NCBI GenBank assembly: GCA_030432595.1
Contig: JAUIGU010000040.1
Span: 1 to 35,397 of the forward strand
Length of the DNA: 35,397 bases
DNA from: Phycisphaerae bacterium
GTDB taxonomy: Bacteria; Planctomycetota; Phycisphaerae; Phycisphaerales; Phycisphaeraceae
Direction: 5' to 3'
Each line of letters starts with the position of its first letter. The stretch's first letter is position 1. Below, in pieces: positions 8,637 through 25,893 of this stretch. The translations under genes and the position numbers were made by a program. The notes beneath the pieces were generated by a model. It was not told the DNA's origin. It saw nothing but the letters and a program-made list of their open reading frames with translations, and did no database searches.

Positions 8637-8750
8637 CAGTGACGGGGTGTGCTCGGACGGTGCCGGGAGCGTGAACGACCGGTGGCGTGTGTTCTCCGGC
8701 GTTGAACGCGGGATCGAGCCATCGCGATTCAGACGTAGCGGGCTAGGTGC

Positions 8751-8770
8751 CACGGTCGCTTGCGACCGTG
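8751..8770. repeat. REP-like palindrome, copy a
   Basis: CACGGTCGC-TT-GCGACCGTG is a perfect 9-bp inverted repeat with a 2-nt centre, in the intergenic gap before the desulfhydrase-like gene. Second and third copies are at 8811 and 23805. Confidence 0.75.
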
Positions 8771-8810
8771 TTTCTTGGTCATCCAGAGACGGCAAGACGA
8801 TTGTCAACGG

Positions 8811-11731: not shown

Positions 11732-12166
11732 TCACCCCTCGTCGATCACGACCTTCTCCATCGTGTCGCCCTGCTTCACCGCGTCGACGACGTCCTGCCC
11801 TTCGAGGACCTTGCCGAACACGCCGTGCTTGCCGTCGAGCCAGTCGGTGGCGACGTGGGTGATGAAGAACTGTGAGCCGTTGGTGTTGGGGCCGGCGTTG
11901 GCCATGGAGAGCGTGCCCGGGCCGGTGTGTTTCTTCGCCAGCGCGCTGGGCTCGTCGTCGAACTTGTAGCCCGCGTCGCCCGTGCCCGTGCCCTTGGGGC
12001 AGCCGCCCTGGATCATGAAGTCGGGGATGACGCGGTGGAAGGTCAGGCCGTCGTAGAACCCGTCCTTGGCGAGCTTGACGAAGTTGCCGGCGGTTTCGGG
12101 GCAGTCGTCGGTGAACAGCTCGAGCTTGATGTCGCCGCGCGGCGTGGTGATGGTGGCGGTGGTCAT
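11732..12166 (-). CDS. cyclophilin-type peptidyl-prolyl cis-trans isomerase
   Basis: 144 aa, the length of the short bacterial cytosolic cyclophilins. Motifs: [19 protein letters not shown], and [22 protein letters not shown], which holds the active-site M-A-N-A-G-x-x-T-x-G-S-Q-F-F-I series. No signal peptide. AAGGAAG lies eight bases before the ATG as Shine-Dalgarno. Known: catalyses cis-trans isomerisation of X-Pro bonds during folding. It is convergent with the HD-GYP gene, with one base between the stop codons, and divergent from the TPR lipoprotein gene. Confidence 0.95.
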
Positions 12167-12329
12167 GGGGTGGCTTCCTTTTTAACGGGCCGTGTCGGGC
12201 AAAAACCGTGTCGAAGGGGCGAGTGTAGCCCATACCGCGGCTTCGCTTTCGGAAAGTTGAGTTGCGGCGGCGGGATCATTCGGTGGAACGGGCACCCAAC
12301 CAGGCGTCAACGTCTCCCGCCCGCCACCA

Positions 12330-12358
12330 TTGACGCCGGGCCCGCCCTGCGGTACCAC
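12330..12358 (+). promoter_or_regulatory. leaderless promoter TTGACG-N17-TACCAC
   Basis: TTGACG at 12330-12335, a 17-bp spacer, and TACCAC at 12353-12358, ending 6 nt before ATG 12365. The -10 deviates from TANNNT at the last base, but the -35 and both spacings are good. Confidence 0.55.
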
Positions 12359-12364
12359 GGCGGG

Positions 12365-14566
12365 ATGAGCCGCCGCCTGCCGCCCCGCGCCGACGTGATC
12401 CGGGCCCGAACCGTCGCCGCCCCGTGCCGCCCGGGCGTGTGGTTCCTCGTCGTTGCGACCGTCGCCGCCGCCGTCGCGCTCACCGCGTGCGACGATGCCG
12501 GCGCTCCGAGCACGCCCGGCACCAACGCCGCCGGCACCCCGAGCGCGTCCCGCAACGCCGGCTCTTCCGCCGCCGCGCCCGCCGACGACACGCTCGCCCT
12601 CATCCAGACCTGGATCGAAAGCGCCGTCCCCGCCTACGCCGTCACGCGTGAGCCGCCGGTCGTCGTCGGCGTGCCCGCGTTCGACGCCGCGCTCGCCGGG
12701 CTGGCCGAAGCACGCGGCACCGACCGCGCCGCGCTGCGCGAGACCATCGCCGCCTTCGAGAACCAACTCTCCACGCAGCGCATGGTCACCGTCGACGACC
12801 GCTTCTTCATCGCGATGGCCAAGCACGACTTCCGCGAGGCGGCGTACAGCCTCGAGAGCGCCGCCGAGGCCGCCGAGTCCGACCCGGTCAAGGCCGCCGA
12901 CCGCTACCGCTGGGCCGCGCTGGCCTACGTCTCCGAGGGCAACCCGCAGCGCGCCCAAAAAGCACTCACCCGCGCCCGCGAGCTGCTCAACCCCGAGCTC
13001 GCCGATCAGGCCGACGCCTGGGCCCGCGTCGCCCACGAAGAACTGCTCAACCTCTGCCAGTTGAAACAGCCCGAAGACGCCCTCGACCTGGCCCGCAAAC
13101 TCATCGCCCACTACGAGACCAAGCTCGGCTCACGCGACCCGCAGACCCTCCGCGCCCTCAACGACCAGGCCTACCTCAACCGCAAGGCCGGCGAAACCAA
13201 CGTCGCCGAGGTCTCCATCCGCTCCGCCCTCTCCGGCCTCGAAGAACAACAAGGCGCCGACCACCCCGACACCCTCGCCGCCGTCCTCAACCTCGCCGGC
13301 CTCTTCGAACAGAAGCAGGAACCCGACGCCGCCCTCGAACACTACCAACGCGTCCTCACCGCTCGCGAAGCCCGCCTCGGGCCCAACCACCACGCCACCC
13401 TCGCCGCCGCAGGCCTGGTCGCCCGCACCCTCCGCACCCTGGGCCGACGCGACGACGCCCTCCCGCTCTTCGAACGCGCCCACCAGGGCTACCTCGACCA
13501 GCTCGGCGGCGACGCCTTCCCCACCCTCGCCGCCGCCTCCAACCTCGGCGCCATCCTCGTCGAGACCGGCAACGTCGAACGCGGCGAAGAGCTCTTCAAA
13601 CAGGCCGCCACCGGCATGGAGATCACCCTCGGGCTCGAGCACCCCGAGGCCGTCACCGCCCGCATGCAGCTCGCCCAACTCGCGCGCGGCCGCGGCGACC
13701 TGGGCGCCGCGCAAACCGAGTTCGAACGCGCCGTCAAAATCTTCGACCGCACCCTCGGGCCCGACCACGAGCAGTCCATCGCCGCCATGAGCCTCCTGGT
13801 CAACACCCTCCTGGCCCGCGGCCGCGGCGCCCAGGCCGTCCCCTACATCGAACAGCTCGCCCAGCGCACCGAATCCGCGTACGGCTTCGAGCACCCCGCC
13901 GCCCTCGAAGCCACCACCCAGCTCGCCATGGTCCGCTTCCGCACGGGCCGGCTCGACCAAGCCATCGCCCTCATCGACCGCGTCTACGACGCCCGCGACC
14001 GCAGCCTCGGCGCCGACGACCCCCAGACCCTCGGCACCCTCCAGGCCAAGGCCCAGTTCCTCGAGATGGCCGAGCGCTTCCCCGCCGCCGAGGCCGACTT
14101 CCGCCGCGCCGCCAGCACCCTCCGCCGCGTGCTCGGCGCCGACGACCCCCAGGCCCTCAACGCCCGCGCCAACCTCGGCGCCTTCCTCACCCGCCGCGAG
14201 CGCTACGACGAGGCCGAGCCCCTCATCCGCAGCGTCCTCGACGCCTCCACCGCCGCCCTGGGTGCCGACCACCCCGACACCGCCGTCCGCCACTTCCAAC
14301 TCGCCGCCGTTCACCTCGGCCGAAACCAGCTCGACCGCGCCCTGCCCCACCTCCGCGCCGCCGCCGACGGCCTGCTCACCTTCGCCGTCACCACCCAGCA
14401 ACAACACCCCGAACTGGGCAACGTCCTGGGCACCTACAACGGTGCCCTGCTCCACCAGGCCCAGCAAGACGAAGCCATTTCCGAAGACGACGCCAAAGCC
14501 ACCTTCAACCAACTCCTCGAAAAACACGGCCTGACGCGCGAACAGGTGCTCGGCCCGGGGCGGTGA
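12365..14566 (+). CDS. TPR-repeat lipoprotein (kinesin-light-chain-type repeats)
   Basis: 733 aa from ATG 12365. This start gives a signal sequence with lipobox (VVATVAAAVALTAC, lipidated Cys after LTA), so the protein should be membrane-anchored. From about residue 230 there are roughly nine to ten repeats of 42 residues, each with a two-helix TPR followed by LGxDHPxT (for example QGADHPDTLAAVLNLAGL, LGPNHHATLAAAGLVARTL, LGADHPDTAVRHFQLA). This is the TPR_10/TPR_12 type seen in kinesin light chains and many planctomycete proteins. Known: TPR arrays bind peptides and proteins. Inference: surface or periplasmic scaffold; partner unknown. The coding strand is extremely rich in C-ending codons, which creates a long antisense open frame (13130-14602) that is not a gene. 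Confidence 0.88.
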   Translation: MSRRLPPRADVIRARTVAAPCRPGVWFLVVATVAAAVALTACDDAGAPSTPGTNAAGTPSASRNAGSSAAAPADDTLALIQTWIESAVPAYAVTREPPVVVGVPAFDAALAGLAEARGTDRAALRETIAAFENQLSTQRMVTVDDRFFIAMAKHDFREAAYSLESAAEAAESDPVKAADRYRWAALAYVSEGNPQRAQKALTRARELLNPELADQADAWARVAHEELLNLCQLKQPEDALDLARKLIAHYETKLGSRDPQTLRALNDQAYLNRKAGETNVAEVSIRSALSGLEEQQGADHPDTLAAVLNLAGLFEQKQEPDAALEHYQRVLTAREARLGPNHHATLAAAGLVARTLRTLGRRDDALPLFERAHQGYLDQLGGDAFPTLAAASNLGAILVETGNVERGEELFKQAATGMEITLGLEHPEAVTARMQLAQLARGRGDLGAAQTEFERAVKIFDRTLGPDHEQSIAAMSLLVNTLLARGRGAQAVPYIEQLAQRTESAYGFEHPAALEATTQLAMVRFRTGRLDQAIALIDRVYDARDRSLGADDPQTLGTLQAKAQFLEMAERFPAAEADFRRAASTLRRVLGADDPQALNARANLGAFLTRRERYDEAEPLIRSVLDASTAALGADHPDTAVRHFQLAAVHLGRNQLDRALPHLRAAADGLLTFAVTTQQQHPELGNVLGTYNGALLHQAQQDEAISEDDAKATFNQLLEKHGLTREQVLGPGR

Positions 14567-15150: not shown

Positions 15151-15300
15151 GTTCTATATCTTGGCAGCGTACCCGCGACGCTTCCGGGAGACAAGGTTTT
15201 TCGACGATTGGAGGTACGGCGTTTGACGTTGGATTTCACCGTCCCGCGTTAAGCGTCTGGTGGATGAGGTCGCCCCCAAGCCCGATCCCTCGTGACCGGC

Positions 15301-15319
15301 CCGCCGACACCGTCGGCGG
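15301..15319. repeat. hairpin at the 5' edge of repeat copy 1
   Basis: CCGCCGAC-ACC-GTCGGCGG is a perfect 8-bp stem with a 3-nt loop. It lies at the edge of the repeat and has no clear counterpart beside copy 2. Confidence 0.5.
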
Positions 15320-16014
15320 CTTTGTGAAGACGCATAGCCCCCGCCGGGAGGCGGGGGTTGGTGATGTCGAATCCACTCGCCAACGTCACCGCGGGCAACC
15401 CCGGCCTTCCGGCCGGGGCTACGGGTCAACGTGTGGTCTGCTTTCCTGCGCACGGTGTGCCCGACACTTCACCGACGCGTGTTGACCCGCGGGTAAAATG
15501 TAGAAGCAGGTGAAGGGCGTGGCCTCCGCGTGGGTGCCAGGTGGGTGAGGGCTTGAGTTCCTTAATCACGAAATGCCGTGTGGCCTTGGACGCGGGTGGG
15601 TCGGGACGGATTCCGACGACGCGCCGCCTCCCGCCGGAACCCCCCGAGTGAGTCCCATCCGAAATGCGGTGACGGCGGGTTGAAAAACCGACGCCGGCCG
15701 GGGGTCTGAATGGATCGTGACGGCGGTCCCGCCCCGGGTTTGTTTTCGAAGTGAGCCGGGGTGTGTCACCCCGGATTTTCGAATGACGGGAACCGGGCCG
15801 ACACGGCCCGGCTCGCTCAGAAGCGCACACGGTGTTCTTTCACAAGTGAATCAGGGGCGTAAGGAGCTCCAAAGAATCTTCCGTGTTTCTTGCACGGATA
15901 GCCGGAACCCGGCGGGTTCCGGACCGGGAGCCGCCGGCTCCCGGCTGAGCGCGCGGGGTGCGCAACGACTCCCCTCCCGCCGGGAGGGGTTGAGGGAGGG
16001 TGCTCGGACGCGTG
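15318..16014 (+). repeat. non-coding structured repeat element, copy 1
   Basis: About 700 bp that match 25188-25893 on the opposite strand, with scattered substitutions and small indels. No conserved reading frame: the copies differ by single-base indels, for example near 15553 (CTTGAG against CTGAG-like sequence in copy 2). It contains at least seven hairpins: 15337-15357, 15398-15417, 15673-15696 (capped by GAAA), 15756-15774, 15794-15814, 15902-15922, and 15971-15989 (CCCCTCCC/GGGAGGGG). A TAAAAT box at 15494-15499 corresponds to TATAAT in copy 2. Several stems show compensatory changes between copies. With the orphan gene and the terminator at 16105 it accounts for most of the gene-free stretch 15151-16380; 16015-16104 and 16134-16380 show nothing recognisable apart from a CAACGCCGC/GCGGCGTTG inverted repeat at 16273-16296. 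Confidence 0.85.
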
Positions 16015-16104
16015 CGCATGGCGTTGGCGGTTTCAGTGTCGATCCTCACGCCGGCCCTATCTCTGCCGGGGAGGTGGAGCAGACAGTGCAGCGCAACGTG
16101 GTAT

Positions 16105-16133
16105 GAAAAAACCCGCGGCGGGGTGCCGCGGGT
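16105..16133 (-). terminator. rho-independent terminator
   Basis: Read on the minus strand: ACCCGCGGC-ACCCC-GCCGCGGGT followed by TTTTT. It lies 250 bp downstream of the pyrophosphatase stop and would end that transcript, or any minus-strand transcript before it enters the repeat. Confidence 0.75.
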
Positions 16134-16380
16134 CGTTTCCTCCCGACCTCTCTTTCCCTCCCGCGGTGCGGGGCGCCTCCGTCCTGCTCCTCCGAATCCT
16201 CCGGGACCTGAACAGACTCTTTTTCCCACCCCCACCCCAAGGGCGGCGGCTTTCTCCTCAGGCGTATGACAACAACGCCGCGCTGGGGCGGCGTTGGGAT
16301 CGAGTCAGGATTTGGTGAATCCACAGAATTGTTGGAGCCGGGCCTTCGCTTGGTTCACGCCCGGCCCGGGAGAACACGAT

Positions 16381-22176: not shown

Positions 22177-22251
22177 GGTGACCGAGGGGACTCGAACCCC
22201 CGACCCTCGGGATCACAACCCGATGCTCTAACCAACTGAGCTACGGTCACC
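22177..22251 (-). tRNA. tRNA-His (anticodon GTG)
   Basis: On the minus strand the molecule folds as a complete cloverleaf: acceptor GTGACCG with CGGTCAC, D arm AGCTC...GAGC, anticodon arm TCGGG-TTGTGAT-CCCGA (anticodon GTG), T arm CGGGG-TTCGAGT-CCCCT region. The extra G at 22251 (G-1) opposite C73 is the tRNA-His identity pair. The 3' CCA is not encoded (C then a T-run follows). Confidence 0.97.
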
Positions 22252-23765: not shown

Positions 23766-23804
23766 AGCACGGGGTTGGACGCTAGAAACCTGGCACGGGG
23801 GGGC

Positions 23805-23824
23805 CACGGTCGCTTGCAACCGTG
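23805..23824. repeat. REP-like palindrome, copy c
   Basis: CACGGTCGCTTGCAACCGTG matches the 8751 copy with one base changed, which breaks one pair of the palindrome. It is intergenic, upstream of the pseudouridine synthase gene. Confidence 0.7.
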
Positions 23825-23892
23825 CTTTGTGGGTCACCGACACCGTCGCACGCACCGGCGGCACCCGACCGGGCGCGGGGTTTCGTTTGCTT

Positions 23893-25187: not shown

Positions 25188-25893
25188 GACACGTCCGACC
25201 ACCCTCGCCCATCCCCTCCCGGCGGGAGGGGAGTCGTTGCGCACACCGCGCGCTCAGCCGGGAGCCGGCAGCTCCCGGTCCGGAACCGGCCCAGTTCCGG
25301 CTATCCGTGCAAGAAACACGGAAGATTGTGGGGACGACAACGCCCCTCGGATTCACTTGTGAAAGAACGCCGTGTGCGCATCTCGCGAGCCGGGCCGTGT
25401 CGGCCCGGTGTCCGGACCCCGGCATCCGGGCCGACACGGCCCGGCTCGCTGCGAAACAAACCCGGGGCGGGACCGCCGTCGCGATCCATGCAGACCCCCG
25501 GCCGGCGTCGGCTTTCCAGCCCGCCGTCACCGCGCTTCGGATGGGACTCACTCGGGGGGTTCCGGCGGGAGACGGCGTGCAATCAGGTTCCGTCCTGATT
25601 CACCCGTGTCCAAGGCCACACGACATTTCGTGATTAAGGAACTCTGCCCTCACCCACCTGGCACCCACGCGGAGGCCACGCCCTTCGTCTGCATTTACAT
25701 TATACCCGCGGGTCAAGGCGCGACGGCGAAGTGTTGGGCGGACCGTGCGCAGGAAAACGGACCACACGAAACCCAATAGCCCCGGCCGGAAGGCCGGAAG
25801 GCCGGGGTTGCCCGCGGAGAAGCTGGCGAAAGATTTCGACATCACGAATCCCCGCCTCCCGGCGGGGGCTAAGCGGGCGCACATCAAGCCGCG
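25188..25893 (-). repeat. non-coding structured repeat element, copy 2 (inverted)
   Basis: Reverse-complement counterpart of 15318-16014; it fills the gene-free stretch 25181-25921. Paired hairpins include 25426-25444, 25280-25300, the GGAA-capped stem around 25503-25527, and the CCCCGCC/GGCGGGG stem at about 25850-25870. The second hairpin carries an extra 8-nt duplication compared with copy 1. The TATAAT box (minus strand) lies in the segment corresponding to 15494 of copy 1. An additional GCCGGGCCGTG/CACGGCCCGGC-like palindrome is present twice (25389-25408 and 25426-25444). Confidence 0.85.

Follow-up and report, generated by a model that had tools for sequence, protein, structure and literature searches.

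The window, by which we mean the whole stretch of 35,397 nucleotides of Phycisphaerae DNA analysed here, contains two copies of a repeated element that looks like the gene of a real RNA rather than junk repeats and that has 44 copies in the 4.4 Mb host genome. We propose that these copies probably form a family of stand-alone genes for a structured, trans-acting RNA, which would have spread as non-autonomous mobile DNA and been homogenised within species. Host copies were located with a 34-nt block (Table 1), allowing up to three mismatches; 38 matched exactly, five with one mismatch, one with two and none with three, and the reversed pattern gave no match in the same search. With the 697-nt element as query, at least 40 places with the core were recovered in the host genome (40 of 146 candidates scored). 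A preliminary description of this DNA had placed two copies at 15318-16014 and 25188-25893; both were found, in opposite orientation (copy 1 plus, copy 2 minus) and 85% alike overall, and with 44 in total the element is no mere pair.

In a pile-up of 40 copies (the four of the 44 that are cut by contig ends are left out of this and all other 40-copy counts), conservation in 20-nt bins is mostly 0.7-1.0 inside ~15443-15957, with one dip to 0.46, and 0-0.52 outside; the highest bins (0.95-1.0) lie at 15528-15567 and 15628-15707. Of the extent originally given for copy 1, the ~515 nt inside these limits make up the conserved unit (in copy 2, ~25253-25757), and the flanks at 15318-15442 and 15958-16014 fall away as REP-like hairpins present in only some copies. 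The RNA-like gene within the repeat is ~430 letters long. Elsewhere in the window, positions 13085-14291 hold an array of 126-nt periodic repeats (42 codons) within an 879-aa ORF (11927-14566).

Table 1. Features of the two copies of the element, in coordinates of the window.
Feature	Position	Strand	Basis
Copy 1 conserved unit: upstream box, promoter-like region, RNA core, peripheral hairpins, 3′ tail	15443-15957	+	conservation profile, 40 copies
Upstream box TTCCTGCGCACG...CTTCACC, putative regulatory/promoter element	15443-15476	+	spacing to 34-mer
-10-like box TAAAAT	15494-15499	+	TANAAT in 44/44 copies
RNA core domain, predicted transcript start ~15506-15508	15508-15741	+	alignment A1, structure counts
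34-nt block	15519-15552	+	exact in 38/44 copies; pattern search
Long arm: H1 15526-15531/15664-15669; H2 15540-15545/15654-15659	15526-15669	+	pairing in 40 copies
P0 15555-15561/15636-15642, closes three-way junction	15555-15642	+	pairing in 40 copies
P1 hairpin CACG/CGTG	15567-15580	+	160/160 cells paired
P2 hairpin; distal helix 15600-15605/15612-15617, hexaloop 15606-15611 (ANGGAN)	15588-15631	+	240/240 distal cells paired
P3 hairpin, GNRA tetraloop, 2-nt 3′ bulge	15673-15696	+	U-A 30 / C-G 10 at one pair
P4 15698-15703/15732-15737; P5 15712-15718/15723-15729, loop GACG	15698-15737	+	loop 40/40
Two peripheral palindromic hairpins, REP-like (15756-15774, 15793-15811)	15756-15811	+	swapped out in 5 copies
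3′ block GTTCTTTCACAAGTGAATC and hairpin GGGGCGTAAGGAGCTCC	15834-15870	+	common to sister species
3′ tail hairpins 15880-15898, 15902-15922, 15924-15944, REP-like	15880-15944	+	missing from short-type copies
Copy 2 conserved unit	25253-25757	-	model R1 match 25456-25694 minus, 280 bits
Copy 2 34-nt block, exact	25646-25679	-	pattern search
Copy 2 -10-like box TATAAT	25699-25704	-	sequence

In the predicted core fold, P1, P2 and the end of a long arm (H1, H2 and P0) would meet in a three-way junction, with P3 and then P4/P5 coming next. Across the 40 copies (alignment A1), 98.6% of the 1,673 cells of the 42-pair named structure pair, compared with 39-51% when the partners are slid; with H1, H2 and P0 added (61 pairs), 97.5% of 2,433 cells pair, compared with 41-48%, in keeping with the claim of a structured RNA of several hundred nucleotides. 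Ten pairs of the smaller structure are changed on both sides, in 71 cells against 18.6 ± 5.2 in shuffled alignments (0 of 500 as high), and 11 pairs of the larger one, in 75 cells against 19.2 ± 5.8. The number of further pair types is no higher than in shuffles (425 and 243 of 500 as high for the 42- and 61-pair structures). In the distal helix of P2 all six pairs change on both sides with pairing kept in every cell, where 100 tree-based null alignments gave a maximum of two double-changed pairs per stem. An R-scape-like test of single columns under the tree null, by contrast, found no true base pair at E<0.05, the best pair (258-265 of that alignment) having E=0.225. Covariation is above chance at the level of helices.

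The remaining helices vary in different degrees. H1 and H2 pair in 100% and 99.6% of cells, with one-sided changes only within the host genome, and P0 in 87.1%, because one position is A.C in 36 of the 40 copies; one P0 pair is double-changed in four copies, and the other changes are consistent with G-U. Two pairs of the fully paired P1 are double-changed, in six copies each, and the lower part of P2 is broken in three variant copies. The P3 stem, for which a T:A to C:G change beneath a GNRA loop had been noted between the two window copies, shows that same alternation throughout the family (Table 1), with a GNRA loop in 40/40 copies (GAAA 22, GCAA 15, GGAA 3), and the end pair of P5 is U-A in 22, C-G in 11 and U-G in seven. 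The ANGGAN loop of P2, the GACG loop of P5 and several junctions, GGGUGCCA among them, are the same in all 40. All three hairpins named in the preliminary description (15673-15696, 15756-15774 and 15902-15922) lie where it put them. The paired changes it relied on are real, but the palindromic hairpins at 15756-15774 and 15793-15811 are weaker evidence than P2, which it did not mention, since hairpins of this type also match other genomes by themselves.

Cells of the G-U type outnumber those of the A-C type by 105 to 10 in the 42-pair structure, and the plus strand of copy 1, with the minus strand of copy 2, is therefore taken as the RNA sense, as had been proposed. The folding energy of the plus strand (-169.1 kcal/mol, z -1.65, 8 of 100 shuffles as good) is modestly low and constitutes modest evidence for structure; that of the minus strand is -140.9 (z -0.64). 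Judged from the comparison of copies, both the structure and the RNA sense are well supported.

The same copies carry no sign of coding. A six-frame substitution test on the 32 gap-free copies of the 40 gave a synonymous share below expectation in five frames and, in the sixth, above expectation within one standard deviation, and the junction at A1 columns 202-209 breaks the frame, being 6, 7 and 8 nt long in 23, 6 and 11 of the 40 copies, respectively. The substitution pattern and these frame-breaking indels rule out an intact or decayed protein-coding gene, a reading left with barely any probability, and the earlier statement that no reading frame is conserved holds on the same two grounds. 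One minus frame, which speaks for coding, is open for at least 105 codons in 33/40 copies and is taken as a by-product of high G+C. Fourteen pattern matches in viral contigs were followed up as minus-strand protein relatives and none was confirmed.

Each copy would possess its own promoter-like region, the core fold of ~230 nt and a variable 3′ part with hairpins. The TAWAAT box reported upstream is present in both window copies (Table 1), and TANAAT is found in 44/44 copies (TAAAAT 37, TAGAAT 4, TACAAT 2, TATAAT 1), 19-21 nt ahead of the 34-mer. A -35 hexamer at the usual spacing was not found in the 44 copies, and TTGAC, 80-91% conserved per position, lies just 7 nt upstream of TANAAT. The distance from the start of TGCGCA to GGNTANAAT is 44-47 nt in the 38 of 44 copies in which the script matched both, and the exact long form of the upstream box occurs at 12 of 223 loci, always 73-75 nt before an element 34-mer. 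From these spacings and boxes we infer that the region is a promoter, from which the RNA would be transcribed.

The copies are essentially intergenic. Based on a codon-usage gene finder, any overlap with a predicted gene is at most 20 nt for 42 of the 44, and the other two share 22 and 25 nt with one at their assumed 3′ end. Of 37 genes next downstream of a copy, 28 are convergent with the element (p=0.0026) and only nine same-sense, the background for these loci being 38 convergent spacers out of 259; on the upstream side 21 of 44 genes are same-sense. These orientation counts carry some error because the gene finder, home-made and imperfect, missed at least one real gene, the A+T-richer reverse transcriptase (RT) gene upstream of copy C19_103459. 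Window neighbours include, by Pfam, an inorganic pyrophosphatase and a pseudouridine synthase, and the other two neighbours tested had no Pfam match. A cis-regulatory leader or riboswitch of the next gene would also be structured and intergenic, and riboswitch junctions are conserved to a degree comparable with those of the element. However, the downstream gene mostly faces the element, which is therefore not a leader, and the flanking proteins are mostly unrelated, apart from one group of eight with local similarity that lie on either side of it. With so few same-sense downstream genes the leader or riboswitch was rejected, and we give it very little probability.

The 5′ boundary of the unit is constant and its 3′ ends are of several types. 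The peripheral domain, which consists of two palindromic hairpins in most copies, is swapped for unrelated sequence in C27_37208, C30_26662, C32_34558, C52_13561 and C64_50198, and the 3′ end, as judged by eye, is usually either of a long type with REP-like hairpins or of a short type that has a purine-rich linker plus a hairpin resembling a terminator. Since the core is unchanged by these swaps, they fit an RNA with tolerant peripheral helices. No fixed 3′ terminus was recognised among the copies, nor, by eye, any terminal inverted repeat or target-site duplication. Strong hairpins lie within 200 nt upstream of 20 of the 44 copies, the farther-upstream DNA used for comparison being largely coding. 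A REP-like hairpin of another type, around CACGGTCGCTTGCGACCGTG, is found in the window at 8746-8778 and 23800-23832 and also upstream of some element copies. In C8_22245, C19_103459 and C37_10923 (loci L099, L135 and L120, respectively) an identical sequence, perhaps the end of an insertion sequence, begins at one spot within the 3′ tail hairpin, each time near a contig end; the shared starting point suggests an insertion element that targets this hairpin.

The periphery invites the view that the whole is a DNA repeat of the REP/BIME or MITE kind, the hairpins of which work as DNA (terminators, or gyrase or transposase sites), so that covariation would reflect maintenance of palindromes and not RNA. 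As in REP, BIME and REPIN families with a RAYT, the element is intergenic and hairpin-rich, its flanks, peripheral domain and 3′ tail are palindromic or REP-like, and there are Y1_Tnp matches in the host genome. Pieces of it also match other genomes: the whole-element query found matches in 13 of 61 genomes (at most nine candidates scored per genome), which outside the host were pieces of only 24-71 nt among those listed. The periphery thus fits membership of this class, but the core of ~230 nt does not. It has long-range helices, with P0, H1 and H2 joining distant segments, its G-U-type changes follow one RNA sense, it is preceded by a promoter-like box, several of its junctions are invariant, and H2 covaries between species as described below. 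We consider the DNA-repeat reading improbable.

Variation among the copies is mosaic. Copies differ by a mean pairwise distance of 0.09 over the core, 0.024 over columns 97-140 and 0.52 over the promoter spacer (ungapped comparison); in a gapped alignment the whole upstream block gives 0.30. Across 72 biallelic sites, linkage (r2) declines from 0.44 at 1-5 nt to 0.32 at 6-15, 0.08 at 16-30 and 0.045 at 31-60 nt, and beyond 60 nt it is 0.027-0.029, compared with 0.026-0.027 when permuted; base pairing explains part of the short-range linkage, and the presence or absence of hairpins also creates some. With linkage near the null value beyond ~30-60 nt, variants have been shuffled among the copies. 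Blocks are almost uncorrelated in the relationships they show; of 15 Mantel coefficients only two, 0.26 and 0.25 (p=0.015 each, uncorrected), exceed 0.11. The two-pair form of P1, for example, is present in six of the 40 copies, four with one type of 3′ block and two with the other. Multi-base variants in different combinations are poorly explained by recurrent mutation, and short-tract recombination between copies is therefore the probable cause of the mosaic.

The genome of a sister species in the host's genus (G001) has its own diverged multicopy family, which was reached through two short matches to the 3′ block. A sample of 60 stretches taken by contig number (674 kb) contained seven places, six of them with a 5′ end, which scales to ~40 copies in 4.4 Mb; the counts are few and contig ends split several copies, so this estimate is rough. 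Diverged homologues were seen at loci L224-L226, L230, L239, L247, L248, L263, L266 and L287, and those at L226, L247 and L263 have an extra hairpin inserted after ACGGA. A TGCGCA box stands exactly 27 nt ahead of GGGTAGAGCCGG in six of eight G001 five-prime ends, the other two having one GGCGCA and one shifted box. The window RNA and that of G001 have in common the CCGCG and GGCGGG arms, CCCGTC-CGAA-CGCGG and the block CTTTCTTTGACAAGTGAATCAGGGGCGT, features that point to homology between two sets of copies whose sequence similarity is almost gone. One pair of H2 is U-A in 40/40 host copies and C-G in all five readable G001 copies, a compensatory change. In the G001 stretches beside orthologues of the genes that flank the window copies, where synteny is partial, no copy of the host or the G001 type was found.

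The 40-copy model (R1) matched no copy in nine G001 loci, with a best score of 12 bits in a stretch aligned with pseudouridine synthase, and it matched one of 301 genomes of the order and one of 397 of the class (overlapping sets), in both cases the host. These genome negatives are weak because the filters were strict, only 5-7 candidates were scored per genome and the G001 family was missed. Searched as DNA, the conserved core matched two of 51 genomes of the family, the host and one other with a 32-nt piece taken as chance. In genome contigs a 23-mer pattern had no match and 60 loci with a 17-mer pattern were judged to be chance, the best of these by R1 (L152, 15.5 bits) overlapping frames that by eye resemble a repeat protein. 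Plasmid and phage searches gave no match, and patterns run on viral contigs gave no accepted relative. At gathering scores Rfam recognises only a tRNA gene, at 22177-22250 (minus), in the whole window. For positions 15250-16150 the best of 15 Rfam matches at E<=10 has 19.4 bits against a threshold of 77.5 and lies in the flank, which agrees with the initial failure to assign the element to a known class. Searches of the open-licence PMC library returned nothing recognised as this element.

Candidate partner proteins were sought in the host genome. TnpB gave no match and neither did RRXRR (IscB), for which control genomes likewise gave none, so that this second negative carries no weight. Y1_Tnp gave three matches, two of them over the cut-off, and a fourth, weak Y1_Tnp protein below the curated cut-off lies beside copy C15_26627. 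The one RVT_1 match (L135 3618-4898, G000:C19) is the RT gene directly upstream of copy C19_103459. A GIIM domain and a YIDD motif are present in the RT, which scores 189 bits against a group II equivalog cut-off of 300 and has group II intron-like 4 RTs as its best PDB matches; PMC12337344 gives YIDD as a feature that distinguishes G2L4 RTs. The RT gene has a G+C content of 49%, compared with 67% in the element part and 62% in the whole of locus L135. Just upstream of the RT gene is a direct repeat (L135 3057-3167 and 3440-3552; 107 of 113 aligned positions identical). Adjacency to the RT concerns one of 44 copies and would occur by chance in ~2% of cases (~81 neighbour genes, ~3,800 genes assumed), before allowing for the four families tried, and we treat it as a lead and not as a link.

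These proteins bear on the idea that the RNA serves only the spread of its own element, a selfish RNA-bearing mobile element mobilised in trans by the RT, a Y1/RAYT transposase or another enzyme, the RNA being likened to retroelement RNAs or standalone guides. Such an element would leave dispersed copies at sites that differ, as seen in two species, and the sole RVT_1 match of the host, of group II type, and the weak Y1_Tnp protein each adjoin a copy. Against this stand the chance estimate for the RT, the absence of TnpB matches, the lack of recognised fixed termini and the few decayed copies found (the 34-mer is blind to heavy decay, and 40 BLAST candidates were scored). Nor does either RNA end have a locus-specific, guide-like segment; by eye both ends are a few recurring variants, and a locus-specific guide RNA was rejected on that basis. 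We regard the selfish element as possible though rather doubtful. A related thought, to which we attach only a slight probability, is a SINE-like bacterial family, in which a reverse transcriptase of the cell, perhaps the one group II-type RT beside a copy, would act in trans to copy tens of non-coding RNA genes per genome and keep them alike; cDNA made from the RNA would replace short tracts in other copies and give concerted evolution within species and rapid divergence between them.

A different role, as a decoy for CsrA/RsmA, would follow if the hexaloop of P2 on its stem bound CsrA and 44 gene copies served to titrate it. The ANGGAN loop sits on a fully paired stem in all 40 copies. Decoys of the CsrB/RsmZ type carry several such motifs, however, and one was seen in the core, the conservation of which lies for the most part elsewhere than in the P2 loop; in G001, ACGGA or ATGGA is present outside any predicted hexaloop. 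The hexaloop is of the type of the RsmZ-2 site bound by RsmN (PMC3791407), and PMC10729762 states that CsrA is conserved in Planctomycetes. On this evidence the decoy is unlikely.

Among known systems, group II introns come to mind through the RT with its GIIM domain beside one copy and through P3, which resembles domain V in its GNRA loop and its 2-nt bulge on the 3′ side. The lower helix of domain V is ~9 bp, whereas that of P3 is 5 bp, the element contains no conserved ORF, and group II intron RNA was rejected, Rfam having matched no intron within the element or near the RT. HEARO/omega RNAs (RF02033) resemble the element in being structured RNAs of several hundred nucleotides with many dispersed copies per genome, and a standalone multicopy case exists among them. 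RF02033, however, is not among the Rfam matches of the element, no 5′ guide segment was seen and the host has no TnpB match; omega-type RNAs carry a reprogrammable 5′ spacer (PMC9755519). Mobile or repeat candidates of structured-RNA surveys often occur with transposase, integrase, nuclease or helicase genes, according to PMC11109978. Here the flanking proteins, a minority of which were annotated, are mostly unrelated to one another. GOLLD, ROOL and OLE are not known to us as dozens of dispersed copies per genome, and the element has no Rfam match. It shares with them a large, elaborate non-coding fold of unclear function, as they are characterised in PMC12286853.

We therefore return to the stand-alone, trans-acting RNA gene. 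Its RNA would most likely be bound by protein, with the loop GGGUGCCA, the GNRA loop and the ANGGAN loop as candidate contact sites. The gene would spread as DNA, as a non-autonomous mobile unit, into intergenic sites, preferably just past the 3′ ends of convergent genes; the mobility suggested in the preliminary description finds its support in copy number, dispersion and differing sites, not in a defined transposition mechanism. Likeness within the genome would be kept by selection on the fold together with short-tract recombination, and copies homogenised within a genome would, for that reason, diverge quickly between species.

Should the RNA be made, 44 genes of a 4.4-Mb genome would encode a single structured RNA not described before, and the estimated number in the sister species is comparable, although hardly any sequence similarity is left between the two sets. 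To our knowledge, dozens of copies combined with a conserved fold, mosaic variation and concerted evolution are rare for a bacterial non-coding RNA. Because the 40-copy model failed to find the sister-species family, homology search can miss such families even within a genus. The family would open the questions of how dispersed bacterial RNA genes become homogenised and of the job done by an RNA that is needed in such numbers.
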